DNA of 64,000 nt, from the NCBI GenBank assembly GCA_913058395.1, contig CAJXQI010000003.1:1-64000 (forward strand), in the 5' to 3' direction. Below are positions 11,077 through 32,565 of this stretch, piece after piece (within the stretch, counting starts at the first letter, position 1; the number at the start of each line of letters is the position of its first letter). The translations under genes were made by a program, and so were the position numbers. Under the pieces are notes generated by a model. It made no database searches. It saw nothing but the letters and a program-made list of their open reading frames with translations, and had not been told where the DNA came from. This DNA is from an uncultured Colwellia sp. (GTDB lineage: Bacteria > Pseudomonadota > Gammaproteobacteria > Enterobacterales > Alteromonadaceae).

Positions 11077-12081
11077 TTAGCGGTTAATTAATTGCGTAGA
11101 TTCGCGCACAATGAGTGAAGGTTTAAATACCTGCTGAATTGTTTGTTCTTTGGTTTGGTATATCTGTTTTAATACCAATTTAGCTGCCATTCGACCCATC
11201 TCATTGACTGGATTTAATATGGTGGTTAATTTCGGGTGTATATAGCGAGCAAAAATAACATCATCAAAACCAACAACAGAAAGATCTTCAGGTAGCGATA
11301 AACCGCGTTCACGGGCAAAGTTCATTGCACCAGAGGCCATTTCATCATTACCACATACTAAGCCGGTAAATTTTTGCTGTTGCGCCATTAAATGTGCGAT
11401 ACCTTCACTACCACCGGTTTCTTTAAAGTCGGCGCTATAAAAAAGCTCTTCATTGAAAGTGATATTATATTCTGCCAATGCTCGCTTATAGCCATCAAAG
11501 CGAGCTTTCGCATCAAACTTGTACTGTGGCCCGGCAATACAAGCAATGTCGGTGTGGCCTAAATCTAACAACGATTTTGTTGCCAAGTATCCGCCTAATT
11601 CATTGTCTAAACTAATACATTGTTCGGCAAGGTTTTCGACATAGCGGCTGATGATAAAAATGGGTGTTTTACCCTTGCTTAATTCTTCTAAGTATTCATC
11701 TGAAACGGCTTCAACATGTAAGATAATAGCATCGCAATTTCTACTAATAAGAAATTCAATACCTTCTTTTTCTTTTTCTTCAATGCTGTGACCTGTAGTA
11801 ACAATAATGTGCTTACCGGCCGACCTAAGCTCACTTTCAACACCGGCCATCATTTCGCCAAAAAAAGCACCATGCAGTTCTGACACTAATAAGCCAATAC
11901 TATTGCCTCGGCTAGATGCCAATGACTGAGCAATGGAATTTGGTCGATAACCAAGTTCTTTCATTGCCAATAAAACTTTTTCTCGCGTTTTATCACTGAC
12001 TTTCGCATTACCATTCATCACCCGTGAAACGGTGGCAAGTGATACCTTTGCTAATTCAGATACTTGGTAAATGGTCGCCAT
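11077..12081 (-). CDS. LacI-family transcriptional regulator of the beta-glucoside locus
   Basis: This 334-residue regulator has an N-terminal helix-turn-helix (residues 3-24, IYQVSELAKVSLATVSRVMNG), a hinge helix (SIAQSLASS) and a periplasmic-binding-protein-like sugar-sensing domain (SIGLLVSELHGAFFGEMMAG through GFDDVIFARYIHPKLTTI). The canonical start follows AGGAAAATC at 12081; the longer frame has no family match. It is the third gene of a run with the GH1 glucosidase and the GPH symporter. It is the obvious reader of the five TGWAAGCGCTTWCA palindromes at 15146-15218 and 25928-26188, which have the LacI-type half-site. The effector is unknown; glucose or a beta-glucoside is likely. Confidence 0.92.
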   Translation of the reverse strand: MATIYQVSELAKVSLATVSRVMNGNAKVSDKTREKVLLAMKELGYRPNSIAQSLASSRGNSIGLLVSELHGAFFGEMMAGVESELRSAGKHIIVTTGHSIEEKEKEGIEFLISRNCDAIILHVEAVSDEYLEELSKGKTPIFIISRYVENLAEQCISLDNELGGYLATKSLLDLGHTDIACIAGPQYKFDAKARFDGYKRALAEYNITFNEELFYSADFKETGGSEGIAHLMAQQQKFTGLVCGNDEMASGAMNFARERGLSLPEDLSVVGFDDVIFARYIHPKLTTILNPVNEMGRMAAKLVLKQIYQTKEQTIQQVFKPSLIVRESTQLINR

Positions 12082-12174
12082 GATTTTCCTTTCGTTTCTC
12101 AGACTCAGTGTCAAAACTAAGCTTTGAATAATATCATATATAGTTGGACTTTAAATCTCTAGACCCGTTAATGA

Positions 12175-13710
12175 TCAATTGTTTACTCGATTTTTTCGGC
12201 GCAATTCAAGCTCATCACCGATTTGGCTATTTGTTTCACTACTCAGTGGGTAGAACAATATTAACAACGCGCTGAGTACAGCAAAAGCTGCAGGTATCCA
12301 GCTCATTAGTAATTTCATCCCTTGTAGTGATGCTGCTATGGTGCTTGAGTCCATGCCATCGTAGCCATAACCAGCTAAGACTAATAATACTAAGGCTCCA
12401 GCAAAGCCTCCACCGGTCTTTTGTACAAAGGTTCCTGCTGAATAAATTAACCCTGTAGCTCTGCGTTTATTTTTCCATTCAGAGTAATCAGCAGAATCAC
12501 CCAACATAGTGAAATATAGCGTTGGAATCATAGCGGCAAAAAACTCTGCACAGCAGCCTAAAATGAAGATGGCAGTTATTTGATCGCTTTCTAACCAAAA
12601 GAAAGGAATGGTAAATAATGTACTGGTCAGCAAGGCGATAATTAATAGTTGGGGTTTACCCCAGCGCTTAGCAAGGTAATTAGTGCAAAGCGCACCTAAA
12701 ATAGACACGAGCAATAGCGCCACAAAATATTGTCCGGTCATCAATTCGTCGCCAATGTAATATTTGAAATAATACGCGATAACGCCGTATTTAATGCCGT
12801 TGAACATCATAGTGAGAAAGCCAAGCGCTAGCAGTATTAGCCAAGGTTTATTGGTGAGTAAGTCAACCATATCAAGCTGAGTACTTGATAATTTGTCAGT
12901 TGGTGTTTTGATAAAACGTTTGATAATGAACCACATTGTTGCCATCACTAAAACGAAAAATGCCCCGCTGATAATGTTGCGATAATAGAAAAATAAACTC
13001 ATGGCTAATAATGGTAAAACAATCAAAGGTAAGTTTTTCATTAAGTCTTTGAGTTCTTGAGATAACCCTAAAGATTTTTGCTGTGGCGTGGTAATTCTTT
13101 CTTTTGTGCTGGCGAATGTAATCACCAACAAAAATACCAAGGTGGCAGCAAACAAATACATGGTAGTTTGATAGCCGACAGCATCATTACCTTGACCAAA
13201 ATATGCAACTAATTTTGGTAAAAAACCCATGACTAATAAGCCACCAGCGAAAGCCCCAGCAAAGCGAAAGCCAGATAAACTGGTTCTTTCTGTATCAGAA
13301 GTGGTCATCACTCCCATTAATGCAGAATAGGGAACATTGTTGATGGTATAGGCTAACGTTAGCCCAATATAAGTAAAATAAGCGTAAGCAAGTTTGCCGT
13401 TTTCGCTCAGGTCTGGAGTGCTAAAACAAAGCACCATAAACAAACCTAAAACCGGGGCAGAGAACAAAATCCACGGACGAAACTTCCCCCATCGGGTTTG
13501 TGTTCTATCAGCAACCATCCCCATAATAATATCGGTGACACCATCCGATAAACGCACAACTAAAAATAACATTGCCGTTGCTGCTGCGGTTATGCCAAAA
13601 GTATCGGTATAGAAAACAGCTAAGTACGCAAGAGCGCCACGCCACACTAAATTTGCAGCGGCATCTCCAACGGCATAACCAACTTTTTCAGAAAATGGGA
13701 GTTTAGTCAT
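12175..13710 (-). CDS. GPH-family sugar:cation symporter
   Basis: This 511-residue inner-membrane carrier of the glycoside-pentoside-hexuronide family (MFS clan) probably brings beta-glucosides or related oligosaccharides into the cell with Na+ or H+. The N-terminus FSEKVGYAVGDAAANLVWR, the loop GMVADRTQTRWGKFRPW and the later DSADYSEWKNKRRATGLIYS are all GPH signatures. About 12 membrane helices are visible. An extra hydrophobic/basic insert near residues 215-270 makes it longer than the second GPH carrier at 26314. It starts 15 bp after the GH1 gene, so the two should be co-transcribed. Confidence 0.9.
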   Translation of the reverse strand: MTKLPFSEKVGYAVGDAAANLVWRGALAYLAVFYTDTFGITAAATAMLFLVVRLSDGVTDIIMGMVADRTQTRWGKFRPWILFSAPVLGLFMVLCFSTPDLSENGKLAYAYFTYIGLTLAYTINNVPYSALMGVMTTSDTERTSLSGFRFAGAFAGGLLVMGFLPKLVAYFGQGNDAVGYQTTMYLFAATLVFLLVITFASTKERITTPQQKSLGLSQELKDLMKNLPLIVLPLLAMSLFFYYRNIISGAFFVLVMATMWFIIKRFIKTPTDKLSSTQLDMVDLLTNKPWLILLALGFLTMMFNGIKYGVIAYYFKYYIGDELMTGQYFVALLLVSILGALCTNYLAKRWGKPQLLIIALLTSTLFTIPFFWLESDQITAIFILGCCAEFFAAMIPTLYFTMLGDSADYSEWKNKRRATGLIYSAGTFVQKTGGGFAGALVLLVLAGYGYDGMDSSTIAASLQGMKLLMSWIPAAFAVLSALLILFYPLSSETNSQIGDELELRRKNRVNN

Positions 13711-13725
13711 ATTTTATTCTTATTA

Positions 13726-15063
13726 TTAGTCTGCTCTTGAGGCTATCAAATTACGAAAGGCTAAACCACTGGCTTTAATAGTTCGAATTTGGGTTTTATA
13801 ATCAACATGCACAATACCAAAGCGTTTTAAATAACCTTCAGCCCATTCAAAATTATCCATTAAACTCCAAGCAAAGTATCCTCGCACATCAACTCCCTGA
13901 GAAATTGCACTGGCGACCGCATTAAGGTGTTGATTGTAATAATCGACTCGCCCTTGGTCGTTAACTTCACCATTTATGCAGTGGTCATCCATTGCTGCAC
14001 CATTTTCTGTAATGTAAATTGGCGGCAGGGTATAACGAGCATCTAACGATATTAATAACTCGGTAAATGCTTGCGGATAAATTTCCCAACCAATATCAGT
14101 ACGCGCAACATCAGGTATTTGTACTTCTTCAAATCCACTGTCTAAGTTGTGTCGATATACTGCTCGGGTGTAAAAGTTTATCCCTAAAAAATCGAGCTCT
14201 TGCGAAATTATTTCCATATCACCGGGTAAAATATCAGGTTGCTGTTGCTTAGGTAATTGTTGATTGATGGCTGGATATGTACCATCCATGATTGGTTTGA
14301 CGTACCACTGGTTAAAATAGTCATCGGCGTATTCAGCAGCAATCTTGTCTTTAATTGAGTCTGTTTCTGGGTAAGCCGGCGTAAAATTTAGCACTATGCC
14401 ATTTTGTGTATTAGGGCTGTGTTTCTTGAGTGTCTCTATCGCTAAACCATGTGCTAGCAATAAATGGTGTGCGGCTTTTTTACCATAATTGATATCGGCG
14501 TGACCTGGCGCATGAATACCGGCTTCATAGCCAAGGTAAGCGCTACAAAAAGGTTCATTTAGTGTTGCGTAAGAATGCACTCTGTCGCCGAATGCTACGA
14601 CTGTTTTTTTCACATAATCTTGAAATTTATAAGCAGTATTACGATTCAACCAACCACCTTCATCTTCTAAGTGTTGTGGTAAATCCCAATGGTAAAGAGT
14701 GACATAGGCTTTAATGCCTCTCGCTTTTAGTCGGTCTAAAATGGCAATGTAATAGTTAATACCCGTTTGGTTTAGATTACCATCTTGTTTAATAATTCTT
14801 GGCCATGACAATGACAAACGGTAAGCGTCAACACCTAGTGAAGCAATAAGCTCGATATCATCTTGCCAGCGATTGTAATGATCACAGGCAACATCACCAT
14901 TTGAATTATCAACAACTTTGCCGGGCGTTGCGCAAAAGGTATCCCAAATACAAGGCAGTCTGTCAGCGACACCGCCTTCAATTTGAAAAGCAGCCGTTGC
15001 TACGCCGTAGGTAAAATTTTTACTGCGCATTGGCGAATTTACGGGGAGAGATAAGTTCATCAT
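13726..15063 (-). CDS. GH1 beta-glucosidase
   Basis: This cytosolic family-1 glycoside hydrolase (about 445 residues) releases glucose from beta-glucosides with retention. The N-terminus FTYGVATAAFQIEGG is typical. The acid/base glutamate lies in ATLNEP (about E170) and the nucleophile in YITENG (about E353); the substrate-binding WDLPQHLEDEGGW and the C-terminal SLMDNFEWAEGY are also present. There is no signal peptide, so the substrate must be imported, most simply by the adjacent GPH carrier. The start is one of two adjacent ATGs after a weak AGAAG site; the longer frame adds 11 unconserved residues. A LacI-type operator lies 83 bp upstream. Confidence 0.92.
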   Translation of the reverse strand: MMNLSLPVNSPMRSKNFTYGVATAAFQIEGGVADRLPCIWDTFCATPGKVVDNSNGDVACDHYNRWQDDIELIASLGVDAYRLSLSWPRIIKQDGNLNQTGINYYIAILDRLKARGIKAYVTLYHWDLPQHLEDEGGWLNRNTAYKFQDYVKKTVVAFGDRVHSYATLNEPFCSAYLGYEAGIHAPGHADINYGKKAAHHLLLAHGLAIETLKKHSPNTQNGIVLNFTPAYPETDSIKDKIAAEYADDYFNQWYVKPIMDGTYPAINQQLPKQQQPDILPGDMEIISQELDFLGINFYTRAVYRHNLDSGFEEVQIPDVARTDIGWEIYPQAFTELLISLDARYTLPPIYITENGAAMDDHCINGEVNDQGRVDYYNQHLNAVASAISQGVDVRGYFAWSLMDNFEWAEGYLKRFGIVHVDYKTQIRTIKASGLAFRNLIASRAD

Positions 15064-15145
15064 TTTTACATTGTCTTCTTTTAGTAAAATCAACACATTG
15101 ATAATTAGCGTCGCTAAGTCATTTTCTTAACGAGCAACTCTTTTC

Positions 15146-15159
15146 TGTAAGCGCTTACA
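15146..15159. promoter_or_regulatory. LacI-type operator (GH1 side)
   Basis: A perfect 14-bp palindrome, TGTAAGCGCTTACA, sits between the divergent GH1 and FHS-transporter genes, nearer the GH1 start. The same word appears twice more in front of the TonB-dependent receptor. Its TGxAA-CG-TTxCA layout is that of LacI/GalR-family operators. Confidence 0.85.
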
Positions 15160-15204: not shown

Positions 15205-15218
15205 TGAAAGCGCTTACA
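15205..15218. promoter_or_regulatory. LacI-type operator (FHS side)
   Basis: TGAAAGCGCTTACA differs from the perfect palindrome at 15146-15159 by one base in the left half-site. The centres of the two sites are 59 bp apart, so one regulator could bind both, possibly by looping. Confidence 0.8.
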
Positions 15219-15323
15219 TTTGAAATGTTAGTGGCTAATAACTAAAAGGTCAACTGGTTTTTATTTAATCATTCTTATTTAAAGCTATGACCAAAATCAA
15301 CAGGTATCAGCTAAGGGGGCATG

Positions 15324-16586
15324 ATGGTAAATCTATCAACACCATCGACAACACTAAATAATGATAGCGATGAAAAAGGTAAAGATTACCGTTTTGCGTT
15401 GACATCATTAACGACGCTATTTTTTCTTTGGGGCTTTATAACCTGCCTGAACGACATATTGATCCCGCATTTAAAGGCGGTGTTTGACTTATCTTATGGT
15501 CAAGCGATGCTAATCCAATTTTGCTTTTTTGGCGCATACTTTCTCGTGTCAATTCCTGCTAGCAAAATTGTCTCAAAGCATGGTTTTCAAAAAGGTATTG
15601 TGATTGGACTTGTTGTTGCCGCTATAGGTTGTGCGATGTTTTACCCTGCGGCCTCATCCCATAGCTATCCGGTATTTTTAGCTGCTTTATTCACTTTGGC
15701 AAGTGGTATTACTATTTTGCAAGTTTCTGCCAATCCTTACGTAAGTACGCTTGGCCCAACAGAAACTGCCTCTTCTCGTTTAACTATGACACAAGCATTT
15801 AATTCGCTAGGCACAACGATTGCCCCTTTCTTTGGCGCCTATTTAATTTTAGATCAAGCTGCTAGTGCTATGTCGGCGGCAGAGTCTGCGCAATCAGTAC
15901 AATTACCTTATTTATTATTAGCTGCGCTTTTGTTGCTGTTAGCGGCAATATTTTCATGGTTGAAACTACCAGCAGTTGAACAAGTAGACCTTGCTGATGC
16001 AACCGAAGAAAAAGCAAAAGGCAGCGCTTGGCAACATCGACATTTGTCTTTAGGGGCATTCGCTATTTTTGTTTATGTGGGTGCTGAAGTGGCAATTGGC
16101 AGCTTTTTAGTAAGCTTCTTGTCGCTAGAGAATATTGCTGGCTTAGTAGAATCTGAGGGAGCTAAGTATATTGCATATTACTGGGGCGGCGCACTGGTTG
16201 GTCGTTTTGCTGGCGCAATTGTTATGCAAAAAATAGCGGCCGGCAAGGTACTAGCCTTTAATGCCTTTGTTGCGGTTTTTCTATTGGCAGTTGTTATATG
16301 TAGTAATGGCGACATTGCCATGGTAGCTATTTTGTTAATTGGTTTATGTAACTCAATTATGTTTCCAACAATCTTCAGTTTAAGCCTAAGTGGTTTGGGC
16401 AGGTTGACTAGCCAAGGTTCTGGCATTTTGTGTTTGGCAATTGTTGGCGGCGCCATAGTGCCTTTAGCGCAAGGGTTTCTAGCCGATGAAATTGGTGTTC
16501 ATACCGCATTTATTCTGCCGATGTTCTGCTATCTCTATATTGCTTATTACGGCGTTAATGGTCACAAAATTAATATACAAAAATAA
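15324..16586 (+). CDS. FHS-family sugar:H+ symporter (GluP/FucP type)
   Basis: This inner-membrane MFS carrier of the fucose/glucose/galactose (FHS) family has about 420 residues. The first helix region [30 protein letters not shown] is the family signature, followed by [15 protein letters not shown] and [15 protein letters not shown]; about 12 helices are present. Glucose is the likely substrate given the glucosidases around it, but the sequence alone does not settle this. Two ATGs overlap the AAGGGGG site; the second, at 15324, gives the better spacing. It is followed after 28 bp by the GH3 gene and is probably controlled by the operator at 15205-15218. Confidence 0.9.
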
Positions 16587-16614
16587 AATTTATATCATTT
16601 ATTTCGGGAAAGTA

Positions 16615-19218
16615 ATGACGATGAAAATTAATAAAAAACATGCTGTTAATAGTAAAGCATTTAAAAGTAACAAGTTTCAAAGTGTAGTGGTGAAGCTTAC
16701 TATGAGCTTGATTTTAGCGGGTGCTCTGGGGTGTGCTGATAACGAAAAAAAAATTGATAAAAGTAACATTAAAACTGTTGATGAAGTTGCAGAGTTTTGG
16801 CCGAAATTACCTCAAGCATTACCCTATGATGAAGCACTTGAGCTCAAGGTTACGAACTTAGTTGCTGAAATGACCTTGGCGCAAAAAGTTGCGCAAATGA
16901 TCCAGCCTGAAATAAGAGATATCACCGTTGAAGACATGCAAAAGTATGGCTTTGGCTCATACTTAAATGGTGGCGGGTCTTTTCCTAACAATAACAAACA
17001 GGCAACACCACAAGACTGGATAAAACTTGCAGAAGATATGTACCAAGCGTCTATTGATAGCAGTATTGATGGCTCAGCTATTCCAACTATGTGGGGTACC
17101 GATGCGGTTCATGGTCATAACAATGTTATTGGCGCGACGCTATTTCCTCACAATATTGGTTTAGGTGCAGCTAATAATCCTGACTTAATAGAAAAAATTG
17201 CTGCTATCACCGCGGCAGAAGTTATGGTGACCGGAATAGATTGGGTTTTCGCTCCAACCGTTGCTGTAGTGCAAGATGACCGCTGGGGAAGAACATATGA
17301 AGGCTATTCAGAAGACCCCACTATAGTGAGAAATTATGCCAGCGCAGTGGTTAAAGGTTTACAAGGTTCACCTGATAAAGACTTTTTATCTGACGACCGT
17401 GTTATTAGTACCGTAAAACATTTTCTAGGCGACGGTGGCACAGTTGCTGGTGATGACCAAGGAGATAATATTTCAACCGAAAAACAACTATTTGAACTTC
17501 ATGCTCAAGGCTATATTGGCGGTTTAAATGCTGGTGCACAGTCAGTTATGGCGTCATTTAACAGCTGGCATGGTAAGAAAAACCACGGTAATAAATATTT
17601 ACTCACTGACATTCTAAAAGATCGCATGGGCTTTGATGGTTTTGTGGTCGGAGATTGGAATGGACACGGGCAAGTTAAAGGTTGTACTAATGAAAGCTGC
17701 CCGCAATCAGTCAATGCTGGCCTAGATATTTTTATGGTACCAACCGATGCATGGAAGCCACTTTATGAAAATACTATTGCGCAAGTTAAGTCAGGTGAAA
17801 TTTCGCAAAGCCGAATTGATGATGCAGTAAGTCGAATTTTACGAGTGAAATTACGTGCGGGCTTATTTGAAAAACCAAGCCCGGCAACACGTAAGTTATC
17901 AGGTAAAACGAAATTAATTGGCCAAACAAGTCACCGTGATGTTGCTCGTCAAGCCGTGCGAGAATCACTGGTTTTATTGAAAAATAATCACAATATTTTA
18001 CCGATTTCGCCAAAGAGTCATATTTTGGTTGCTGGTGATGCGGCAAATAATATTGGCAAGCAGTCAGGTGGCTGGTCGGTTACATGGCAAGGTACAGGTA
18101 ATAAAAACTCTGATTTTCCTGGTGCTCAGTCTATTTTTGACGGTATTAATCAACAAACATCTTTAGCTGGCGGAAGCGCGACACTGAGCGTTGATGGTAG
18201 TTTTGCTAAAAAACCTGATGTTGCAATTGTCGTCTTTGGCGAAGAGCCTTATGCCGAAGGCCATGGCGACCGAGATAATTTAGAGTTTCAACGTGGCAAT
18301 AAAAAAGACTTAGCGCTTTTGAAGCGTCTTAAGCAACAAGGTATACCCGTTGTAGCCGTATTTATTAGTGGTCGACCTATGTGGGTAAATGCTGAGCTGA
18401 ATGCTTCTGAAGCTTTTGTCGCAGCATGGTTACCAGGTACAGAAGGTCATGGTGTTGCAGAAGTATTGCTTAAAAATAGTGAAAATGAAGTTAACCATGA
18501 CTTTTTAGGTCGCTTATCTTTTTCTTGGCCAGCAACGGCTGATCAAACGGCAACTAATCATTATGATGTGAATTATCAGCCGCTATTTAAATTTGGTTAT
18601 GGTTTGAGTTATCAAGATAGGGTGATGGTAAGCAATGATTTTGATGAAACATCACAAGTTTCTCATGATCAATTACCGAATTTAGCCTTGTTTGTTGGTG
18701 CAGCAAAAATGCCATGGAAAATGCAATTAAAGTCGGGAAATGAAAGTGCTGATATCACTTCTAGCGTGCAGTCGCTCGGCGCGGTTACATTACAAACATT
18801 AGATAAAACGGTGCAAGAAGATGCTAGAACAGTGTCTTTTGATGGTAGCAAACAGGCTAGCGTGGTGTTAACGAGTAACTTTCCTGAAGATTTACGCGCC
18901 TATAAAGAAGCTAATGCGACATTAACATTCTCGGTGAAAGTCAATTCTGTGAGTAATGCGCAAATTTTATTGTCTATGGCTTGTGAGCAGCAATGCCCCG
19001 GCTCAGTAAATCTGACAAAAGTTCTGCATTCGATGGCGTTAGATAGCTGGGAAAACATCTCCATTGATTTGCAATGTTTTGAAGATGCTGGCGTAGACTT
19101 TTCACAGGTAACTAGCCCATTTCAGATAAGTACTACTGGGGCGGAGAGTTTGAGTTTTGCTGATATGATTATTGAGCCTAACTCCGCTGAAACCGCGACT
19201 ATAAGTTGCCAAAAGTAG
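16615..19218 (+). CDS. GH3 beta-glucosidase/exo-beta-glucanase, exported
   Basis: This is an 867-residue family-3 glycoside hydrolase. The N-terminal signal segment (MSLILAGALGC) ends at a cysteine near residue 40 that could carry a lipid anchor, although the lipobox (A-L-G-C) is not ideal. The catalytic nucleophile is the aspartate in FVVGDWNGH (about D347), and the substrate-binding KHFLGDGG precedes it at about 268. The (alpha/beta)6 sandwich domain follows (KNNHNILPISPK, then PDVAIVVFGEEPYAEGHGDR). A C-terminal beta-rich extension of roughly 180 residues recalls the marine exo-1,3/1,4-beta-glucanase ExoP. The longest frame reaches into the transporter gene; GGGA before the ATG at 16615 decides the start. 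Confidence 0.92.
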   Translation: MTMKINKKHAVNSKAFKSNKFQSVVVKLTMSLILAGALGCADNEKKIDKSNIKTVDEVAEFWPKLPQALPYDEALELKVTNLVAEMTLAQKVAQMIQPEIRDITVEDMQKYGFGSYLNGGGSFPNNNKQATPQDWIKLAEDMYQASIDSSIDGSAIPTMWGTDAVHGHNNVIGATLFPHNIGLGAANNPDLIEKIAAITAAEVMVTGIDWVFAPTVAVVQDDRWGRTYEGYSEDPTIVRNYASAVVKGLQGSPDKDFLSDDRVISTVKHFLGDGGTVAGDDQGDNISTEKQLFELHAQGYIGGLNAGAQSVMASFNSWHGKKNHGNKYLLTDILKDRMGFDGFVVGDWNGHGQVKGCTNESCPQSVNAGLDIFMVPTDAWKPLYENTIAQVKSGEISQSRIDDAVSRILRVKLRAGLFEKPSPATRKLSGKTKLIGQTSHRDVARQAVRESLVLLKNNHNILPISPKSHILVAGDAANNIGKQSGGWSVTWQGTGNKNSDFPGAQSIFDGINQQTSLAGGSATLSVDGSFAKKPDVAIVVFGEEPYAEGHGDRDNLEFQRGNKKDLALLKRLKQQGIPVVAVFISGRPMWVNAELNASEAFVAAWLPGTEGHGVAEVLLKNSENEVNHDFLGRLSFSWPATADQTATNHYDVNYQPLFKFGYGLSYQDRVMVSNDFDETSQVSHDQLPNLALFVGAAKMPWKMQLKSGNESADITSSVQSLGAVTLQTLDKTVQEDARTVSFDGSKQASVVLTSNFPEDLRAYKEANATLTFSVKVNSVSNAQILLSMACEQQCPGSVNLTKVLHSMALDSWENISIDLQCFEDAGVDFSQVTSPFQISTTGAESLSFADMIIEPNSAETATISCQK

Positions 19219-21171: not shown

Positions 21172-21184
21172 GTTTTATCTCTTA

Positions 21185-22864: not shown

Positions 22865-25800
22865 TTAGAAAGTATAGCGAGCACCAATTGCATAGCGTGC
22901 ACCTAAATCTTCTAAGCGCCAAAGCTGCGCTTGTGTTCTACCATGAGTACGAGAAGACTCCTCGGTAACATTAATCCCTTCAAAGAATACTGACAATTCA
23001 TCGTTAACTTGATAAGCAACGTTAAAGTCGATTTGAGAATAAGATTCTGTATAACCGGGCTCATTAATATATTGTGCTTGAGTATTTAAGAACTTATCAC
23101 GCCAGTTATAGGCGATACGCGCCTGAAAGCCGTCTTTTTCATACATGGCAACAAGGTTAGCAGTATCACTTAAACCTACCAAAGCGAACTGTGTAACGGT
23201 TGGGTCGCCATTATCGTCAAAGCCAATATCACCATTTACTGTGGTGTAGTTTGCTTGAAAGCCAAAACCACTATCGCCAAAGAAGTGTTGAATGGCGAAT
23301 TCCATACCGTAAACGTTAGCTTCTTTATTGTTAACATACTTTGAAACGGTGAAGTCCATTAATGGATCGTCAGCGTTAGGCGAAATATCGTAGGCCTGTT
23401 CAAATTGGTCTCCGGTCATAGAGTTAAAATCAACACCGTTTTCCATTGCGGCAACCATAGAAAATAAATTGGTATCAGTTACCTGTAAGCCAAGTGCTTC
23501 TAAAGCCGCTTGTGCAGCTAAAGCGCGAGGGCCTGCGGTAGCGTCTCGTAAACCGTAAACATTTTCTGTAACTGGCTGGCGCCCAGCAAAATTACTCACA
23601 CGTTTGTCGTAAAAACCTAATGATACATAGCTTGTATCTTCGAAATACCATTCGGCAGAAATATCGACATTATCTGATTCAAGCGGTGCTAAGCTAGGGT
23701 CACCACTTGCTGCTGTACCAAGTTGAGCGCCTGATAAAATAGTTGGGTTACTTGGCCCGCTAACGCTGCCCGGTGCCGCACTTAATTGGTCATAACGTGG
23801 GCGTGCAATAGTTTTGCTATAAGAAAAACGTGCTTTAACATTTTCAACTACTTCAAGGTCAAAATCGAAGCTAGGTAGCAGGTGGTCATAACTTGAAGAG
23901 CCTGTAAATATTTGTGCAGCACCACCATTTTTAACATTAAAGTCATTATTACCTTCCCAAAGAACTTCTGTTGGTAAAGCAATGTTATCGGTAGAATCAA
24001 CATCGGTACTAGCGTATCGTAAGCCAGCACTTAAGTTATATGGCATGCCACCAAGTTCGCCCGCTAATTCAAACTGGAAAAATACTGCAGTAACATCTTC
24101 TTTAATTTTTCGGTTAGTGTTGTATGGGTCATGTGCTAAGAAGTCAAAACCATAATTATCACCAGCCCAAGCACCAATGCGAGAAGCACTACCCGTAACA
24201 CCACCAGAATAAACGCCGGAGGTACTGAAATCATCAATTAAACTTGGAATATTTACTGGCGTTAAGAAATCTTCAGGTAATTCACCTGGGTTTTCAACGC
24301 CCCAGTTACCCATCGTATGGCGAGTATCTGATTGTAAGGCATGACTTTCCATAGAACGTGATTCAATACCAAACTCAATACTACCTTCATCGAATTCATA
24401 AAGGCCACTTAAGCGTACTTGGTCAATTTCAGTTTTTTGCGAAGCACGAGTTTTATCTAAAATTGAGGTGCCTATATCGGAATTATCTAATTGGTTATTA
24501 CAATTTAGCCTTTGAACCATATTGCCATTGCCGTCATCAACAAGGTAACAATCATCAAAAGTCATGAGTAATGCTGGTAAACCATTATTGAAGTTTACCC
24601 CTTGTGCAGCAGCAACATTAGCGCCTAAACCTGCATTCACCCAGCTACCATATTTTGCGCCTGGGCGACTATCAGCAGAAGAGCTATGGCCGTCGAAGGT
24701 CACGGTGAACTGATCATTCACTTCGTACTGTAGATTCAAACCAATAGATTTATTTTCATTAATTTGATTAAGTTCTTGTTGGGCAAGTCCTAAATCACGA
24801 GGATTTTGATCTCGACGTTCTTCGCTATAGCCAATTGGCGTTTTAACGGTATTGTCATCAAACGTTAATGCCGATTTATAAGTGTCCATCCAAATAGACT
24901 GTTCCGCGCGGTTTGCGTGAATGTCTTGTTTTGAATACGTGTAATCAAGCGTTGCGGTTAAGTTATCAACAGGGCGATATTGTAACGTTACTTGGGCATT
25001 GGTACGTTCACGCTCATTGTCTTGAACAAAGTAACGTAAATCTGAAGGCAAAGAGAATAACTGCCCAGCCGAAGGCGCATTTGTTAATACGGCAGGCGTT
25101 CCGTCTTGTTGCTGTGGGATGCTTGAAATATCTTCGTATGCATTGGTACGCCATTGGTTAACAAAGGCACCTGCAACCGAGCTATCGCGACGTTGAAAGT
25201 TCGCTGAAATAGAAGCACCAAAGCGCTCATCGTCATCAGTCCAACTTAGTAAACCCGAAAGTTCAGGCGTTACATCGCTACCTACGCGGTTGGTGGTATC
25301 GTGTAAGGCTTTTGCACCAAAACTAGCTTGTGTGCCTGGGTTATCTAAAGGTTTGCCAGTTACAATATCAATGGTTGCACCAATGCCACCAGTTGCGATA
25401 TTTGCTCGGCCAGTTTTATAAACTGATACAGACTTTATAGCGTCTGAAGAAAGGTTGGCAAAATCAAATGCACGTGTACTTTGATCACCTAATGATGCGC
25501 CCGGCATAGTACGACCATTAAGCGTGATCATATTAAAGTCAGGGCCAAAACCACGCACGGTAACTTTACTGCCTTCGCCGTTAGAACGGTCTATTGATAC
25601 ACCCGTAATACGTTGTAGTGATTCTGCTAGGTTAGTATCAGGAAATTTACCAATATCTTCTGCTGAAATAGCATCAACAACACCACTCGCATCTCGTTTT
25701 AATCTTGTTGATTCTTTGATACTTGAGCGCATTCCTGTTACTTGAATGACTTCTATTTCTTTTTCTGCGTTACTCGCTTCTTCCGCATATATTGGTGCAA

Positions 25801-25870
25801 CAGTGCTAACGCCTAATATTAGCGATAAGCTTGTTGCTATGCGTGACTTTTTATATGTTGTGTTATTCAC
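22865..25870 (-). CDS. TonB-dependent receptor for oligosaccharide uptake
   Basis: This outer-membrane receptor of about 1001 residues has a signal peptide (SLSLILGVSTVAPIYA), a TonB-box-like segment with EIEVIQVTG, the plug domain (KFPDTNLAESLQRITGVSI, then GSKVTVRGFGPDFNMITLNG) and a 22-stranded barrel ending in YAIGARYTF, whose terminal Phe is the usual barrel-assembly signal. It belongs to the large receptors found in carbohydrate loci of Caulobacter, Xanthomonas and Alteromonadales. GGGGAG lies 6 bases before a GTG at 25870, so that start is chosen over an ATG 21 bases upstream. Two perfect LacI-type operators lie 58 and 114 bp upstream. Confidence 0.92.
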   Translation of the reverse strand: MNNTTYKKSRIATSLSLILGVSTVAPIYAEEASNAEKEIEVIQVTGMRSSIKESTRLKRDASGVVDAISAEDIGKFPDTNLAESLQRITGVSIDRSNGEGSKVTVRGFGPDFNMITLNGRTMPGASLGDQSTRAFDFANLSSDAIKSVSVYKTGRANIATGGIGATIDIVTGKPLDNPGTQASFGAKALHDTTNRVGSDVTPELSGLLSWTDDDERFGASISANFQRRDSSVAGAFVNQWRTNAYEDISSIPQQQDGTPAVLTNAPSAGQLFSLPSDLRYFVQDNERERTNAQVTLQYRPVDNLTATLDYTYSKQDIHANRAEQSIWMDTYKSALTFDDNTVKTPIGYSEERRDQNPRDLGLAQQELNQINENKSIGLNLQYEVNDQFTVTFDGHSSSADSRPGAKYGSWVNAGLGANVAAAQGVNFNNGLPALLMTFDDCYLVDDGNGNMVQRLNCNNQLDNSDIGTSILDKTRASQKTEIDQVRLSGLYEFDEGSIEFGIESRSMESHALQSDTRHTMGNWGVENPGELPEDFLTPVNIPSLIDDFSTSGVYSGGVTGSASRIGAWAGDNYGFDFLAHDPYNTNRKIKEDVTAVFFQFELAGELGGMPYNLSAGLRYASTDVDSTDNIALPTEVLWEGNNDFNVKNGGAAQIFTGSSSYDHLLPSFDFDLEVVENVKARFSYSKTIARPRYDQLSAAPGSVSGPSNPTILSGAQLGTAASGDPSLAPLESDNVDISAEWYFEDTSYVSLGFYDKRVSNFAGRQPVTENVYGLRDATAGPRALAAQAALEALGLQVTDTNLFSMVAAMENGVDFNSMTGDQFEQAYDISPNADDPLMDFTVSKYVNNKEANVYGMEFAIQHFFGDSGFGFQANYTTVNGDIGFDDNGDPTVTQFALVGLSDTANLVAMYEKDGFQARIAYNWRDKFLNTQAQYINEPGYTESYSQIDFNVAYQVNDELSVFFEGINVTEESSRTHGRTQAQLWRLEDLGARYAIGARYTF

Positions 25871-25927
25871 TTGTATCTCCCCTCGAGACATTTAATCACA
25901 TTCAACCTAGTTATTCATAAGTAATTT

Positions 25928-25941
25928 TGTAAGCGCTTACA
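25928..25941. promoter_or_regulatory. LacI-type operator (receptor-proximal)
   Basis: A perfect TGTAAGCGCTTACA palindrome 58 bp upstream of the TonB-dependent receptor start. It is identical to the operators at 15146 and 25984. Confidence 0.85.
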
Positions 25942-25983
25942 TTTTGAGTTTTTTTAAAAAGCCAGTGATTGTAAGCTTGTATT

Positions 25984-25997
25984 TGTAAGCGCTTACA
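25984..25997. promoter_or_regulatory. LacI-type operator (receptor-distal)
   Basis: A second perfect TGTAAGCGCTTACA palindrome, centred 56 bp from the first. The spacing nearly equals that of the pair at 15146/15205, suggesting cooperative or looped binding. Together with the site at 26175 it fills the 443-bp region between the receptor and the GPH symporter; the rest of that region is AT-rich and shows no gene. Confidence 0.85.
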
Positions 25998-26174
25998 TAA
26001 AGTTAGATGAAAAAAATATTTACGTCAATATTTTTTTGTTCATAAAATAAGCTTTATATTTTATCTTGTTGATTTTTAGTGTATTAAATGTGCATTGTGT
26101 GTAACTGAAATGTACGTTAGTTAGGCTTTATTTAAGAAAATTAGCGTGATTGTAATCGTGTAAATTAATTTTAA

Positions 26175-26188
26175 TGAAAGCGCTTTCA
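26175..26188. promoter_or_regulatory. LacI-type operator (GPH/GH94 side)
   Basis: TGAAAGCGCTTTCA is a perfect palindrome with the TGAAA half-site on both sides. It lies 125 bp upstream of the GPH symporter and is the natural control point for the symporter-GH94-gluconokinase-CBM9 unit. Confidence 0.8.
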
Positions 26189-26313
26189 TTTTTTGCAATT
26201 ATGTGATTAAACTAAAAAGCATAGTCAGCTCTCTTGATGCATTGAAACTTTGGCAATCAAGATTTACCTAGAAAATAGTTATCTATTGTTTACTGGATGC
26301 TAGGAATATAGTT

Positions 26314-27663
26314 ATGCAAGTCATTAAATTAAAAGAAAAAATATCATATGCCTGTGGCGACGTTGCCTCTAATTTCTATTGGCGAGTGTTCGATGTGTTT
26401 CTATTCATTTTCTATACCGACGTCTTTGGTCTGCACCCAGCTGCTGTTGGAACCATGATGTTAGTAACGCGTTTAATTGATGCATTTTCAGATCCCATTA
26501 TGGGCGCATTGGCTGATCGCACCCAAACACGATTTGGCAAATTTAGACCATATCTACTTTGGGGAATAATCCCGTTAGTGGCAGCCGGAGTACTAGTATT
26601 TACCGTGCCTGATTTAGACAGTGACGGTAAGCTAATTTGGGCTTATGCCACCTATATTTTTATGATGCTGGCGTACACTTTTATCAACGTCCCATACGGT
26701 GCACTACTTGGCGTGATGACTGGAGAAAGCCAAGAGCGAACAACACTAACGAGCTTCCGTTTTATTGGTGCATTCTCTGGTGGTAGTTTAGTCGCTTACT
26801 TTACGCCAACTTTGGTCACTCAACTTGGCCAAGGCGACCAAGCACTGGGTTGGCAACTAACGATGGGGTTATACGGCATTATTTCTGCAATTTTGTTCAT
26901 GATTAGCTTTTATAACACCCGCGAACGTATTGCGCCGCCGCAAACAACTCCCACGCCTATTCGTACCGATCTTAAAGACTTACTCAATAACAAACCTTGG
27001 TTAATTCTGTTTAGCTTAGCGCTAATCGTGATGATGACAATTACGCTCAGAGCAAGCTCTGGCACCTTTTATTTTAAATACTATGTTGGCCGAGAAGACC
27101 TTATTGGTAGCTTCTCATTTGTTTACATGATCGCACTGGCTCTAGGTGCTGCGTGTACACCGTTAATGACTAAATTCTTTGATAAACGAACACTGCTAAT
27201 GATACTGATGATTATTGTTGCCGTGCTTTCCAGTGCATTTTATTTTTTGGATAAAAGCCAAGTTAACTTGATGTTTGCTTTGCAAATTATTATTGGCTTT
27301 TGTTTGGGACCAAAATCCCCACTGGTTTTTTCTATGTATGCCGATACCGCTGATTATTCTCAATGGAAAAATGGCCGCCGAGCAACTGCCATGGTTTTTT
27401 CAGCGGCTGCCTTTGCACAAAAACTCGGCGGTGCTTTTGCTGGTGCCATGATGGGCTGGCTGCTTGGCTCGTTAGGGTATGTGGCAAACCAAGTGCAATC
27501 GTCTGACTCATCCCATGGCATTGTGTTGTTAATGACCTTAATTCCCGGAGTTTTTGCTGTTATTTCAGTGTTCATAATTCGGTTCTATTCATTATCAGAC
27601 GCTGCCGTTATCAAGTTGCAAGCTGACTTAAAGCAACGTACGTCATTTGGAGAAGCGAGTTAA
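26314..27663 (+). CDS. GPH-family sugar:cation symporter (second copy)
   Basis: This 449-residue inner-membrane carrier of the GPH family has about 12 helices. It shows KEKISYACGDVASNFYWR at the N-terminus, GALADRTQTRFGKFRPY in the first cytosolic loop and DTADYSQWKNGRRATAMVFS in the later loop. It ends with the stop codon immediately before the GH94 start, so the two are translationally close. Because it is encoded with a disaccharide phosphorylase and a gluconokinase, its substrate may be an aldobionate such as cellobionate; this is inference from context. It is shorter than the GPH protein at 12175-13710 and lacks that protein's insert. Confidence 0.9.
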   Translation: MQVIKLKEKISYACGDVASNFYWRVFDVFLFIFYTDVFGLHPAAVGTMMLVTRLIDAFSDPIMGALADRTQTRFGKFRPYLLWGIIPLVAAGVLVFTVPDLDSDGKLIWAYATYIFMMLAYTFINVPYGALLGVMTGESQERTTLTSFRFIGAFSGGSLVAYFTPTLVTQLGQGDQALGWQLTMGLYGIISAILFMISFYNTRERIAPPQTTPTPIRTDLKDLLNNKPWLILFSLALIVMMTITLRASSGTFYFKYYVGREDLIGSFSFVYMIALALGAACTPLMTKFFDKRTLLMILMIIVAVLSSAFYFLDKSQVNLMFALQIIIGFCLGPKSPLVFSMYADTADYSQWKNGRRATAMVFSAAAFAQKLGGAFAGAMMGWLLGSLGYVANQVQSSDSSHGIVLLMTLIPGVFAVISVFIIRFYSLSDAAVIKLQADLKQRTSFGEAS

Positions 27664-30072
27664 ATGATGAATAGTAAACAACAATCGGCAACTCAAGTAT
27701 TACCATATCAGCATGACGTGGTGACTAAGCGAATAAACTGCTTCGACCCTGTAACAATGAAATTTGCTAGTGGCTTTTTATGGAACAAAACCATGATGGT
27801 GCACATGAATTGTCGAGGCTATGCCGTAAGCCAATTTATGCAGCCTGAGCCAAGTAAGTACTCAGGTGCACCTAATATGGAAGCAAAAACTTTCATGCAA
27901 CCAGAACAAGGTTACTTTGCTCATCACCCTGGTCGATTTTTTTATGTTAAATGCCATGATTCTGGTCAGGTATTTTCCATACCTTACGAGCCGATGCGTA
28001 AATCGCTAGATAAGTTTACTTTTTCTATCGGCATGGCTGATATTGTTTGGCGTATTGAGCAGTTATCAATTGAGTTTATTTTAACTTTGTCGCTACCTGT
28101 AGAAGGTTGTCATGAGTTGTGGCAACTAGAAATTAAAAACCTCACTAATGAGGCAAAAAACATCAGCATTTATCCGTGCTTTTCTATTGGCTATAAATCT
28201 TGGATGAATCAGTCGGCAAGTTACTATCCGGAAAGTAATGCCATTATTGCTAGCAGTATTACGCCTTATCAAAAGCTTGAAGATTATGATAAATATCAGC
28301 AGTTAAAAGACGATACCTTTTTACTTGCCGACCGAAAGCCTAGTAGTTGGACAACCAGCCAGCAATTATTTGAAGGCGAAGGCTCAATACAATTTCCTGA
28401 TGGCATAAAGGCGAAAAAACTAGCACGTGATGAAGCTTGTTATGAAACCGCTATTGCTGTTATGCAGTATGATATTGAGTTATCTGCCCAAGAGAATCAG
28501 CAATTTAAGTTTGTTTTTGGTGCCTGTAAAGGGCAAAAAGAAGTGGCAGAAATTAGAGGTCGCTACTTTGCTAATGAGCAAACATTCGAAGTAAGCCATG
28601 GTCATTATCAAGACTATATTCAGCAATCTCAGCAAAATTTTAGCCTTGAAAGTGAAGACAAAGCGCTCGACCAATTTGTTAACCACTGGCTACCAAGACA
28701 AGTGTTTTATCATGGCGATAGCAATAGATTAACCACAGATCCACAAACGCGAAATTACCTACAAGATGCAATGGGCATGTGCTTTCTCGCGCCAGAAAAA
28801 ACCAAACATGTTTTGCTAACCACACTTTCTCAACAAAAGCGTGATGGTTGTTTGCCTGACGGCATTCTTTTACATCCTGATGCGGAAATTAAATACATTA
28901 ACTTAATTCCGCACAGTGACCATTGTGTATGGCTACCGCTTTGTTTGAAACTTTATTTAGATGAAACGAACGACGTTAGTATTCTGCAAGAAAAAATAGC
29001 TTTTAGTGACGATACAACACTTTGTACTGTTGCCCAACACGTTGAACTTGCACTTGATTACTTATTGAATGCTACCGACGACAGAGGTTTAAGTTTTATT
29101 GAACAAGGGGATTGGTGCGACCCACTAAATATGGTCGGCCATAAAGGCAAAGGCGTATCCAGTTGGTTATCACTTGCCACGGCTTATGCACTAAAACAGT
29201 GGTGCAGCATTAAAGAAAATTACGGCTTATCTGGCGATGAAAAACTGGCTGAATATCAATACGCAGCGCAAGCCTTGAATAACGCAGTGAACAAACATTT
29301 GTGGGATGGTAACTGGTATGCCAGAGGCATTACTGATGACAATAAATGTTTTGGTATTGCTGATGATGTCGAAGGGCGAATCTTCCTTAATCCACAAAGT
29401 TGGGCAATGTTAAGTGGTGCTGCCGACCAAGTAAAAACCGATAGCTTACTGTGCGAAATTGAACAGCAATTGTCGACGCCATTTGGCCCTATGATGCTAG
29501 CGCCAAGTTACACAAAAATGCGTGAAGATATTGGCCGTTTAACGCAAAAATATCCTGGTACGGCAGAAAATGGCTCGGTTTATAATCATGCTAGTGCATT
29601 CTACGCTTACAGTTTGTTCCAAATTGGCGAATCAGACAAAGCGCTGAAAATTCTTCAACAAATGTTAAGCAGCGAAAATGATGTTTTAGTTCGTCAGCAA
29701 TTACCGGGTTTTATTCCCAATTATTATCGAGGTGCATTTCAACAGTTTCCTGAAATGGCAGGGCGCTCAAGTCAGTTATTTAACACAGGAACGGTAGCGT
29801 GGGTATATCGTTGTATTATTGAAGAATTATGCGGGTTAAAGGGCGAAGCGGGTTGTTTAGTTGTTACGCCTAAAATGCCGTCTCATTGGCAAAAAATGAC
29901 CGTGAAACGTAAATTTTTAAATGCCGATTTTACCGTGAAAATAAACCGTGATAATAAAGCTAAACAACAAGTTATGTTTGTTAATGGTGTACGTGTTATC
30001 GGTAACAAAGTTGAAAACATTCAGTCAGGAAAGTACTACCAGTTGGATGTGACTTTACCATTGAGAAATTAA
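27664..30072 (+). CDS. GH94 disaccharide phosphorylase, probably cellobionic acid phosphorylase
   Basis: This 802-residue GH94 inverting phosphorylase has an N-terminal beta-sandwich (FASGFLWNKTMMVHMNCRGYAVSQFMQPEP), a helical linker and the (alpha/alpha)6 barrel. The general-acid aspartate probably lies in EQGDWCDPLNMVG, and the phosphate-site region includes TAENGSVYNHASAFYAYSLF. The length (about 800) and the FMQPEP/YFAHHPGRFFYVK stretch recall the cellobionic acid phosphorylases of Saccharophagus and Xanthomonas more than the chitobiose or laminaribiose types. The gluconokinase 47 bp downstream would handle the gluconate product. If it is instead cellobiose phosphorylase, the products are glucose and glucose-1-phosphate. 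There is no signal peptide, so it is cytosolic. Confidence 0.85.
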   Translation: MMNSKQQSATQVLPYQHDVVTKRINCFDPVTMKFASGFLWNKTMMVHMNCRGYAVSQFMQPEPSKYSGAPNMEAKTFMQPEQGYFAHHPGRFFYVKCHDSGQVFSIPYEPMRKSLDKFTFSIGMADIVWRIEQLSIEFILTLSLPVEGCHELWQLEIKNLTNEAKNISIYPCFSIGYKSWMNQSASYYPESNAIIASSITPYQKLEDYDKYQQLKDDTFLLADRKPSSWTTSQQLFEGEGSIQFPDGIKAKKLARDEACYETAIAVMQYDIELSAQENQQFKFVFGACKGQKEVAEIRGRYFANEQTFEVSHGHYQDYIQQSQQNFSLESEDKALDQFVNHWLPRQVFYHGDSNRLTTDPQTRNYLQDAMGMCFLAPEKTKHVLLTTLSQQKRDGCLPDGILLHPDAEIKYINLIPHSDHCVWLPLCLKLYLDETNDVSILQEKIAFSDDTTLCTVAQHVELALDYLLNATDDRGLSFIEQGDWCDPLNMVGHKGKGVSSWLSLATAYALKQWCSIKENYGLSGDEKLAEYQYAAQALNNAVNKHLWDGNWYARGITDDNKCFGIADDVEGRIFLNPQSWAMLSGAADQVKTDSLLCEIEQQLSTPFGPMMLAPSYTKMREDIGRLTQKYPGTAENGSVYNHASAFYAYSLFQIGESDKALKILQQMLSSENDVLVRQQLPGFIPNYYRGAFQQFPEMAGRSSQLFNTGTVAWVYRCIIEELCGLKGEAGCLVVTPKMPSHWQKMTVKRKFLNADFTVKINRDNKAKQQVMFVNGVRVIGNKVENIQSGKYYQLDVTLPLRN

Positions 30073-30119
30073 CCACAGAACAATTAACTACCGAAAAATA
30101 GGTTTTATACAGTAGCAAT

Positions 30120-30656
30120 ATGGCAAATTTATTTATAATTATCGGCGTAAGTGGCAGCGGTAAATCAACGGTTGCTGAGCAGCTGGCAGAAAAAATCGGC
30201 TACAGTTTTATTGATGCCGACGACTTTCATAGCGATAACGCAAAAGTAAAAATGGCGGCAGGCGAAGCGCTTACCGACGAACTTAGATCACAATGGATGC
30301 AGCACTTACAGCGCTTTTTAACAATTAAAGCTAAGCAAAGAGTATCGATTGTTTTGGCTCATTCTGGCTTAAAGAAAGTGCATCGAGATATGCTAAGAGT
30401 GCTAGGTTTCAAGCCGTACTTTTTCTTTTTAGAAGGCAGTGAAAGTGTTATTGCGCAACGTATGCAAAAACGTTCAGAGCACTTTTTTCCTGTGGATTTA
30501 TTACATAGCCAGTTTCAAACGCTTGAACACCCGAAACTATCACAACAAAAAGGTGAAGAGCTAGATGTTAATATTATTAGCATTGAGCAAAGTATTAATG
30601 CGATAGTGACGCAAGTTGAACATGCCGCGATAAAGTTTATTACAAGTGGCGCATAG
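30120..30656 (+). CDS. gntK: Gluconokinase (GntK type)
   Basis: This 178-residue P-loop kinase should convert gluconate and ATP to 6-phosphogluconate. It shows the Walker A motif GVSGSGKST (8-16), then DADDFH, the NxxKM-like segment DNAKVKMAAGEALTD, and ALKK-like SGLKKVHRDMLR in place of the usual CSALKxxYRDxLR. The segment HFFPVDLLHSQFQTLEHP matches GntK, and its ending is consistent with the family length of 160-180. The drift around the substrate loop may mean a related polyol acid rather than gluconate. It lies between GH94 and CBM9 on the same transcript, the expected place for using the phosphorylase product. Confidence 0.86.
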   Translation: MANLFIIIGVSGSGKSTVAEQLAEKIGYSFIDADDFHSDNAKVKMAAGEALTDELRSQWMQHLQRFLTIKAKQRVSIVLAHSGLKKVHRDMLRVLGFKPYFFFLEGSESVIAQRMQKRSEHFFPVDLLHSQFQTLEHPKLSQQKGEELDVNIISIEQSINAIVTQVEHAAIKFITSGA

Positions 30657-30690
30657 CATTAATGATGCAGGTGAAATTCAGGATTTTAGT

Positions 30691-31479
30691 ATGAAAACAA
30701 ACAAAATTAGTCGTTTAACCAAGGCGTTATTGCTTAGTGGTTTGTCAATATTCGCCACAACAGGGCAAGCGCTTGAAGCTAAGCAAACCCAAGTAGCGCC
30801 TGCTATTGATGGCGTGATGGACTCATTATGGAAAACCGCAACATGGCAACCACTTAATCATCATATTTTAGGTGCAATGCCCAGTGCTGAAGACTTTTCA
30901 GGGCGCTTTAAAGTGATGTGGGACAAAAACAAAATTTATCTTTTAGCTGAAATTCAGGACGATGTACTTTTTGATAATCATCCAGATCCATTGAAAGCCT
31001 ATTGGGATGACGATTGCCTAGAAATTTTTATTGATGAAGACAGATCCGGTGGCGAGCACCAATTTAACTTCAATGCCTTTGCCTACCATGTGGCACTCGA
31101 CAACCAAGCGGTTGATATTGGCTATAAAACTAAAGATGGCCAGCCTGATTTTATGCTGCTCAATGACCACTTAACCAGTGCATGGAAACGCCAAGCCACA
31201 GCTCCACATAAACTTATATGGGAAGTGGCTTTAGATGTTTACGATGATAGTTTTGATTACGTAACCACTAAAACAGGTACTAAAAAGCTTAATGACGCGA
31301 AACCAGTGACATTAACCACCAATAAAGAACTCGGTTTTATGCTCGCTTATTGCGATAACGACGGTAGTGCTAGTCGAGAGCATTTTATCGGTTCAGTGGC
31401 TATAGAGCCTAAAAATGGTGATAAAAACTTGGGTTATAAAGATGCGGGTGTTTTTGCACCGTTAACTTTAGTTGAGTGA
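30691..31479 (+). CDS. Exported CBM9-like carbohydrate-binding protein
   Basis: This 262-residue secreted protein has a signal peptide (LTKALLLSGLSIFATTGQA) followed by a single family-9-like carbohydrate-binding domain: APAIDGVMDSLWKTATW at the start, the central YLLAEIQDD and the conserved WDDDCLEIFIDEDRSGGEHQFNFNAF. No catalytic module is attached. In related operons such proteins are thought to bind sugar ends in the periplasm; this role is inference. The ATG at 30691 follows AGGA by 7 bases, and the longer frame overlaps gluconokinase. It is the last gene before an inverted repeat. Confidence 0.83.
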   Translation: MKTNKISRLTKALLLSGLSIFATTGQALEAKQTQVAPAIDGVMDSLWKTATWQPLNHHILGAMPSAEDFSGRFKVMWDKNKIYLLAEIQDDVLFDNHPDPLKAYWDDDCLEIFIDEDRSGGEHQFNFNAFAYHVALDNQAVDIGYKTKDGQPDFMLLNDHLTSAWKRQATAPHKLIWEVALDVYDDSFDYVTTKTGTKKLNDAKPVTLTTNKELGFMLAYCDNDGSASREHFIGSVAIEPKNGDKNLGYKDAGVFAPLTLVE

Positions 31480-31495
31480 TTTGGAATAAGGTTAT

Positions 31496-31569
31496 TTTAA
31501 GCGGTAAGTAGTAGCTGTCTATAATGTGTGTTTGGCACGAATAACAGCTAGCTACATTTGTTCGCTTAA
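31496..31569. repeat. Imperfect inverted repeat between convergent genes
   Basis: TTTAAGCG (from 31496) pairs with CGCTTAAA (to 31569), and further in AGTAGCTGT pairs with ACAGCTAGCT, giving an interrupted ~74-nt hairpin just after the CBM9 gene. It has no clean T tract, so a terminator or RNA-stability role is only a guess. Confidence 0.5.
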
Positions 31570-31585
31570 ATGCTTTCTCGGATGA

Positions 31586-32176
31586 TTATTTCCAATACTT
31601 TTGGCTTTTCAAGTCATTTTTCCAACGGCGGTAACCTCTGAGAAAACTTTCAACATCGATGCTTTCATTAAATATGGCATCATTATCTTCTGTACAATGT
31701 AATAAATATTGCTCTGCAACCACTTGTAATGAATCATTTTTTTCTTTAACCCACTTAACTTCAAAATCCATGTACTTCATGAATTTAGGAACATCAAATG
31801 AATGCTCGTATTGCTTATCTTTTCCGAAGAAAACCTCAGATAAATTAGTTTTTCCACCACTAATTATATGTGCCCTAAAACAACTTGCGATAACGATTAA
31901 TAATTCAGGAGGAGGAAAAAAGCCTGACTCTATACACCAAAGGAAAAAGTCTATCGGTGAACTTTGTATTTGCTCGCGTTCAATAATATTGTGATTTGAA
32001 TTTTGTTCGAGTAAGTTCCAGCTTTGCTCAAATTCTGAATAATAAGGAAACTCTTGATGTTCATAGGAGGCTTTTAATATTGACCGTACCTCCGCCACAT
32101 CTTCAGGTGTATTTTTATAAGCACCTGAAAAAACGGCTTTACCCTTAACTAATTCATATAGCTCATCTACGTTCAT
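31586..32176 (-). CDS. Hypothetical protein of unknown family
   Basis: I do not recognise this 196-residue protein. It is soluble-looking, acidic and rich in aromatic residues, with a helical N-terminal half (AEVRSILKASYEHQEFPYYSEF), a short hydrophobic stretch (PPPELLIVIASCFRAHII) and a basic C-terminal end (YRRWKNDLKSQKYW). GGTGA just before the first ATG points to the second ATG of the frame (32176). It is a single gene, convergent with the sugar locus and flanked upstream by ~390 bp without genes. Its context suggests an accessory insertion but gives no function. Confidence 0.6.
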   Translation of the reverse strand: MNVDELYELVKGKAVFSGAYKNTPEDVAEVRSILKASYEHQEFPYYSEFEQSWNLLEQNSNHNIIEREQIQSSPIDFFLWCIESGFFPPPELLIVIASCFRAHIISGGKTNLSEVFFGKDKQYEHSFDVPKFMKYMDFEVKWVKEKNDSLQVVAEQYLLHCTEDNDAIFNESIDVESFLRGYRRWKNDLKSQKYWK

Positions 32177-32565
32177 TTTCATTCACCCTAGTTTAAATAC
32201 TAGTAAAACTAGACAGATACATACAGTAACAGTTGAAATGTTTTCAACTTTAACGCCAACTAATAATTTAATAATAAATTTTTCCATAACTAATTAACCC
32301 TTTATATATTTGTTTGGTTGCTATTATGGTTGCTAGTGAATTATTGTCACGGACACAAAGTTTAAACGTTGTCCGAGTAGTTATTCGCAGAATGTTGCAG
32401 GTTCCCGCTAATAGCTTATTATGGAGATTTTTATACAATATAAAAACAAGTAAAACACATCATATTGATTTCACGCCTATTTCATCTAATACTCGCATCT
32501 TGACCCTAAGTACTTAAATCCGCTACTGTTACTGGCAATTATATCTATACGAATGCAGGAACATT
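32177..32565. other. Intergenic region without a supported gene
   Basis: This AT-rich stretch separates the orphan gene from the SRPBCC-glpK pair. It must hold the divergent promoters of both. A 67-codon open frame on the plus strand lacks a ribosome site and any recognisable sequence. I see no repeat or RNA gene. Confidence 0.6.

Follow-up and report, generated by a model that had tools for sequence, protein, structure and literature searches.

Which sugar is shared by a GH94 phosphorylase and a gluconokinase encoded side by side in a β-glucoside locus, how does it enter the cell, and where does it come from? These questions are raised by four genes at positions 26314-31479 of the window, the 64,000-nucleotide stretch of DNA from an uncultured Colwellia species that was analysed. 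We consider it quite likely that this operon catabolizes cellobionate through import, phosphorolysis and gluconate phosphorylation, the acid being scavenged and the genes placed under LacI-type co-control. The chemistry is already known and, judged by sequence, the operon would be a well-supported further example of cellobionate phosphorolysis as described elsewhere. The new angles are the occurrence of that pathway in genomes without matches to three main cellulose-attacking families, and a carrier residue that can be tested. Our literature search, with most subscription journals outside its reach, found no description of such a bacterial operon.

All four genes lie on the + strand, with the order and positions of the preliminary description, and each passes the curated thresholds for its family. 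The first (26314..27663, +) encodes a GPH symporter of 449 residues (TIGR00792, 412.9 bits, cut-off 231.35), followed by an 802-residue GH94 enzyme, the predicted cellobionic acid phosphorylase (CBAP; 27664..30072, +), a GntK/IdnK-type gluconokinase of 178 residues (30120..30656, +; TIGR01313, 144.4 bits, cut-off 113.75) and a protein of the CBM9 fold whose N-terminus looks like a signal (30691..31479, +). They run head-to-tail with 0, 47 and 34 bases between successive genes, the last figure counted to the ATG at 30691. Terminator-like sites in the interval 25800-33000 number 7, against 6.9 expected by chance, and the promoter and terminator scan gave nothing above chance, so a single transcript for the four genes is something we can only infer. 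Directly downstream there is an ORF of 198 residues (31586-32182, −) with no Pfam or NCBIfam match at an E value of 0.001.

The β-glucoside setting recognized earlier also stands, in two groups of genes at 11077-15096 (−) and 15321-19218 (+). The first comprises a LacI-family regulator (11077..12114, −; PF00356, 66.2 bits), a second GPH carrier (12175..13710, −; 43% identity to the first) and a GH1 β-glucosidase-family enzyme (13726..15096, −; PF00232, 499.6 bits). The second holds a gluP-type MFS sugar carrier (15321..16586, +; TIGR01272, 387.7 bits, cut-off 202.55) and a GH3 enzyme with an Exop_C domain (16486..19218, +; PF00933, PF01915 and PF18559), the ORF of which overlaps gluP and has an uncertain start. 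A TonB-dependent receptor (22865..25891, −; TIGR01782, 653 bits) is divergent from the operon. The genome (G000) is of 4.39 Mb and 99.96% complete.

The identity of the phosphorylase is central. It is the single GH94 in the genome, with domain scores of 204.9 bits for PF17167 (cut-off 27) and 75.6 bits for PF06165, and its closest named relative, at 90% identity, is that of Cognaticolwellia mytili, a member of the Colwelliaceae. Comparison with solved structures gives a full-length match of 975 bits to the Saccharophagus degradans enzyme (4zle). The next PDB sequence, a chitobiose phosphorylase, scores 189 bits, cellobiose phosphorylases 97-145 and laminaribiose phosphorylase 41; by bit score among solved structures a characterized CBAP is nearer than the other GH94 enzymes. 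In the S. degradans enzyme the carboxylate is reportedly bound (Nam et al. 2015) by Arg609 and Lys613 together with Gln190 from the partner subunit, and we take these three positions of 4zle to be the carboxylate-binding ones. The letters at 190, 609 and 613 of 4zle are indeed Q, R and K, and they align with Gln203, Arg625 and Lys629 of the window enzyme. Gln347 is also named for the S. degradans enzyme in a passage of PMC5309861. All three acid-site residues are present, and their equivalents, with Gln347, are identical in 103 of 103 sequences, namely the window, 22 relatives from the order and the best 80 of 528 named-genome loci, sets in which organisms may overlap. Five GH94 proteins of the order from another clade (L025, L026, L027, L029 and L030) all display Ile, Phe and Val at the positions of Gln190, Arg609 and Lys613, and carry the motif seen in the chitobiose phosphorylase 1v7v. 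In one relative (G052, L003) a translated search reported a TGA within the CBAP match, yet an uninterrupted ORF of 797 residues is present there.

On the scores and the acid residues together we reject identity as a cellobiose or laminaribiose phosphorylase. A locus for β-glucosides would be a natural setting for such an ordinary enzyme, with the kinase adjacent by chance, but we regard this reading as highly improbable given that disparity in score, the conserved acid residues, the recurrence of gluconokinase linkage among relatives, and the inactivity on cellobiose of the Neurospora crassa homologue, as stated in the part of PMC4537572 consulted. That the window enzyme would convert cellobionate and phosphate to glucose 1-phosphate and gluconate is, by contrast, strongly supported by the sequence comparisons.

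The adjacent kinase offers a fate for the second product. GntK phosphorylates gluconate to 6-phosphogluconate. The window protein scores 97.5 bits against the E. coli gluconate kinase 1knq, and falls short of both equivalog cut-offs for E. coli but exceeds that of TIGR01313. An edd gene is found elsewhere in the genome (994.9 bits, cut-off 708.25). Around the phosphorylase genes of 22 relatives in the order, the fetched stretch contains a GntK-like gene in 18, a GPH carrier in 12, a dehydratase of 601-603 residues in eight and a CBM9 protein in six; GntK was not found in the stretch fetched for the remaining four (L033, L037, L041 and L051). The dehydratase was scanned in two of its eight loci (L040 and L048) and proved to be edd both times (852.4 and 815.1 bits, cut-off 708.25). 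Among the best 80 of 528 named loci, taking five ORFs on each side of CBAP, with some loci stopping at contig edges, the counts are 37 for GPH, 26 for GntK, 17 for LacI, 15 for CBM9 and 11 for a TonB receptor in the same position. This recurrent linkage of GntK, GPH and edd supports gluconate as a product, and the pathway put forward previously, with GPH uptake, phosphorolysis of cellobionate and phosphorylation of gluconate, draws strong support from sequence and linkage as a prediction.

Linkage takes other forms as well. A second operon layout occurs in eight relatives in the order (L040-L043 and L045-L048), where the dehydratase adjoins CBAP, with GntK between them in seven of the eight; at most of these loci a LacI gene takes the opposite flank and GPH is missing from the labelled genes. 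A cluster of oxidoreductases (c19), labelled GFO/IDH/MocA from a Pfam run on the L035 copy, lies near CBAP in three of the 22 relatives (L035, L041 and L043) and could act on oxidized or keto sugars. Many Paenibacillus (L071-L073 and others) carry close CBAP homologues of about 52-54% identity without these partners; no GPH, GntK or CBM9 gene was found near the Paenibacillus loci among the best 80 of 528, where other kinase families were sought coarsely. This hints at gene transfer and at the use of other carriers.

Might the same enzyme logic serve a different acid disaccharide, laminaribionate or a glucosyl-glucuronate? The S. degradans enzyme also accepts glucuronate, and the locus and genome contain the GH3 enzyme with Exop_C, the GH1 enzyme and one GH16 protein, so that β-1,3-glucans may matter. 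Set against this, the gluconokinase next to it and edd suit gluconate rather than glucuronate, and a review table that names the closest solved enzyme (4ZLE, Sde_0906) cellobionic acid phosphorylase gives D-gluconate as its acceptor and a 1,4-linked product (PMC8950772). We judge another acid to be an unlikely true substrate, and continue with cellobionate.

The route by which cellobionate enters E. coli growing on it is described as unknown in a passage of PMC4403981; the window offers a concrete candidate for a bacterial carrier. The GPH protein is, on sequence and position, the proposed importer, and among solved carriers MelB comes closest (138.8 bits). Lys334 is lysine in all 50 CBAP-linked carriers (the window, 12 from the order and 37 from named genomes) and in none of eight other GPH proteins, namely the second GPH of the window, which has isoleucine there, its homologues L067 and L070, and UidB, YagG, YicJ, YihO and YihP of E. 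coli. It aligns with MelB Phe341, beside Trp342, in an alignment that may be off by one and in which MelB Arg149 likewise slips by one. Trp342 of MelB contacts the sugar, with a hydrogen bond at C1′-O of the second ring, according to the part of PMC8329300 cited here. This proximity to a sugar-contacting position suggests that Lys334 may be an acid-binding lysine of a putative cellobionate carrier. The window carrier shares the TIGR00792 family with MelB and UidB, and Lys334 is particular to the CBAP-linked carriers against the eight compared. The linked carriers may form one clade, in which case ancestry alone could explain the pattern. UidB carries acid sugars. It has no lysine at this position, which counts against the role proposed for Lys334, as does the small size of the control set (eight). 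Two other candidate signs of acid transport were discarded: loss of Asp19 and Asp124 (MelB numbering), as asparagine stands at both positions in the window's second GPH too, and Arg246, a weak signature given that arginine also occurs in YagG and YicJ.

The last gene was described earlier as encoding a secreted CBM9-like protein, and family and fold assignments agree with CBM9. The ORF (30646-31479) spans 277 residues from a GTG; the ATG at 30691 is the more likely start, giving 262 residues and an N-terminus that by eye resembles a signal peptide. The CBM9_1 family PF06452 matches with 142.3 bits (cut-off 23.4). In a Foldseek search with a structure model built from seven sequences (pLDDT 77.6), CBM9 structures match best, led by the cellobiose complex 1i82 (E value 3.1e-12), which is also the best PDB sequence match. 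Trp105 is invariant across the seven sequences. 1i82 is the CBM9 of Thermotoga maritima Xyn10A; the fold is the same, and the protein here is free-standing, without a catalytic domain. Cellobionate as its ligand is a guess. In the scheme we favour cellobionate, 4-O-β-D-glucosyl-D-gluconate, would pass the outer membrane, perhaps by way of the divergent TonB receptor and aided by the CBM9 protein. The GPH symporter would then take it into the cytoplasm, where after phosphorolysis the 6-phosphogluconate produced by GntK could enter an Entner-Doudoroff route by way of the edd gene.

How might the operon be controlled? The palindrome TGWAAGCGCTTWCA, of LacI-operator type, has five exact copies in the window, confined to two intergenic regions between divergent genes. 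Three (25928-25941, 25984-25997 and 26175-26188) lie between the TonB receptor and GPH, and two (15146-15159 and 15205-15218) between GH1 and gluP/GH3. Allowing up to two mismatches there are six sites in the window, a number reached in none of 100 shuffles. In the 37 GPH-linked loci from the best 80 of 528 named loci, up to 600 bases upstream of GPH were searched where that gene precedes the phosphorylase, and these 21,647 bases contain 36 exact sites spread over 17 loci, as against a single exact site in 614,926 bases elsewhere. Since the two regions have operators in common, the operon is probably under joint control with the GH1 and gluP/GH3 genes, and we infer that the LacI-family protein at 11077-12114 reads them.

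There remains the source of the acid. Products of LPMO action had been suggested as substrates for this bacterium, a suggestion that the genome does not support: the family search gave no match to AA10 LPMO (PF03067), GH9 or GH5. Nor does CBAP follow AA10 in a sample of 197 genomes of the order, 23 of which carry CBAP (at least 812 bits), since AA10 is present in 5/23 carriers and 43/174 others with no co-occurrence (Fisher p = 1). These two results indicate that the acids eaten by this cell are probably made by others or by some other oxidase. GH9 does co-occur with CBAP (15/23 carriers against 33/174 others, p = 1e-5), in a test that ignores kinship while CBAP carriers cluster in few families, and GH5 is found, in some cases weakly, in 16/23 carriers, a search that covered carriers only and has no control. 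Scavenging cannot therefore be the rule for all, and in other parts of the order many carriers are likely to attack β-glucans themselves. Six of the 23 match none of the three families (G000, G015, G093, G134, G160 and G165, the last 80% complete), and in the six CBAP genomes sampled from the window's own family AA10 is absent, GH9 occurs once and GH5 three times, one of these weak.

For G000 scavenging of aldobionates released by other organisms is the simplest reading, and a rival to be taken seriously is that the cell oxidizes cellobiose itself. An oxidase in the periplasm or outside the cell would then make cellobionate that is subsequently imported, feeding the same pathway. The genome encodes one GSDH-family protein (contig 7; PF07995, 427 bits), an example of such a candidate, and four GMC proteins, one of which (L058) belongs to no named NCBIfam family, and the operators common to the operon and the β-glucoside genes would suit such a scheme. 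Yet the GSDH protein falls far below the NCBIfam glucose/sorbosone cut-off (128.8 against 434.55 bits), and two of the GMC proteins are choline-dehydrogenase-like, in a scan that took in three of the four, all but L057. Inspection of the CBAP loci, in which a minority of neighbours was scanned, turned up no adjacent oxidase gene. We hold self-feeding to be improbable, though deserving of attention, and scavenging to be the better account of this cell.

More tentatively, and with rather less than even confidence, we propose that a group of marine gammaproteobacteria, certain members of which are devoid of GH5, GH9 and AA10, live partly on aldobionates leaked by organisms that degrade polysaccharides oxidatively, using a dedicated co-regulated system with a GPH cellobionate carrier in which Lys334, on helix X, binds the carboxylate. 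If so, aldobionates would be a public good, harvested by bacteria of the sea that lack the customary enzymes for attacking cellulose. The carrier also offers a single residue to probe.

Comparison with known systems places the operon. SdCBAP (Sde_0906, PDB 4ZLE, EC 2.4.1.321) is matched over its full length with the same acid-site letters, but here the gene occurs in a genome without AA10, GH9 or GH5 and is joined to GPH, GntK and CBM9; Saccharophagus was compared by the enzyme alone. In N. crassa cellobionate is imported by CBT-1 and phosphorolysed by CAP, and the gluconate is phosphorylated by a gluconokinase, as set out in the part of PMC4537572 consulted. The three-step logic is the same, whereas here the carrier is different, CBT-1 being set apart from GPH by description, not sequence, and the genes form one bacterial operon. 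Finally, we note that two adjacent Trp_halogenase-family proteins (19687-22729, −) follow the TonB receptor gene, and that one relative (L031) displays the same Trp_halogenase neighbourhood together with a SapC protein.
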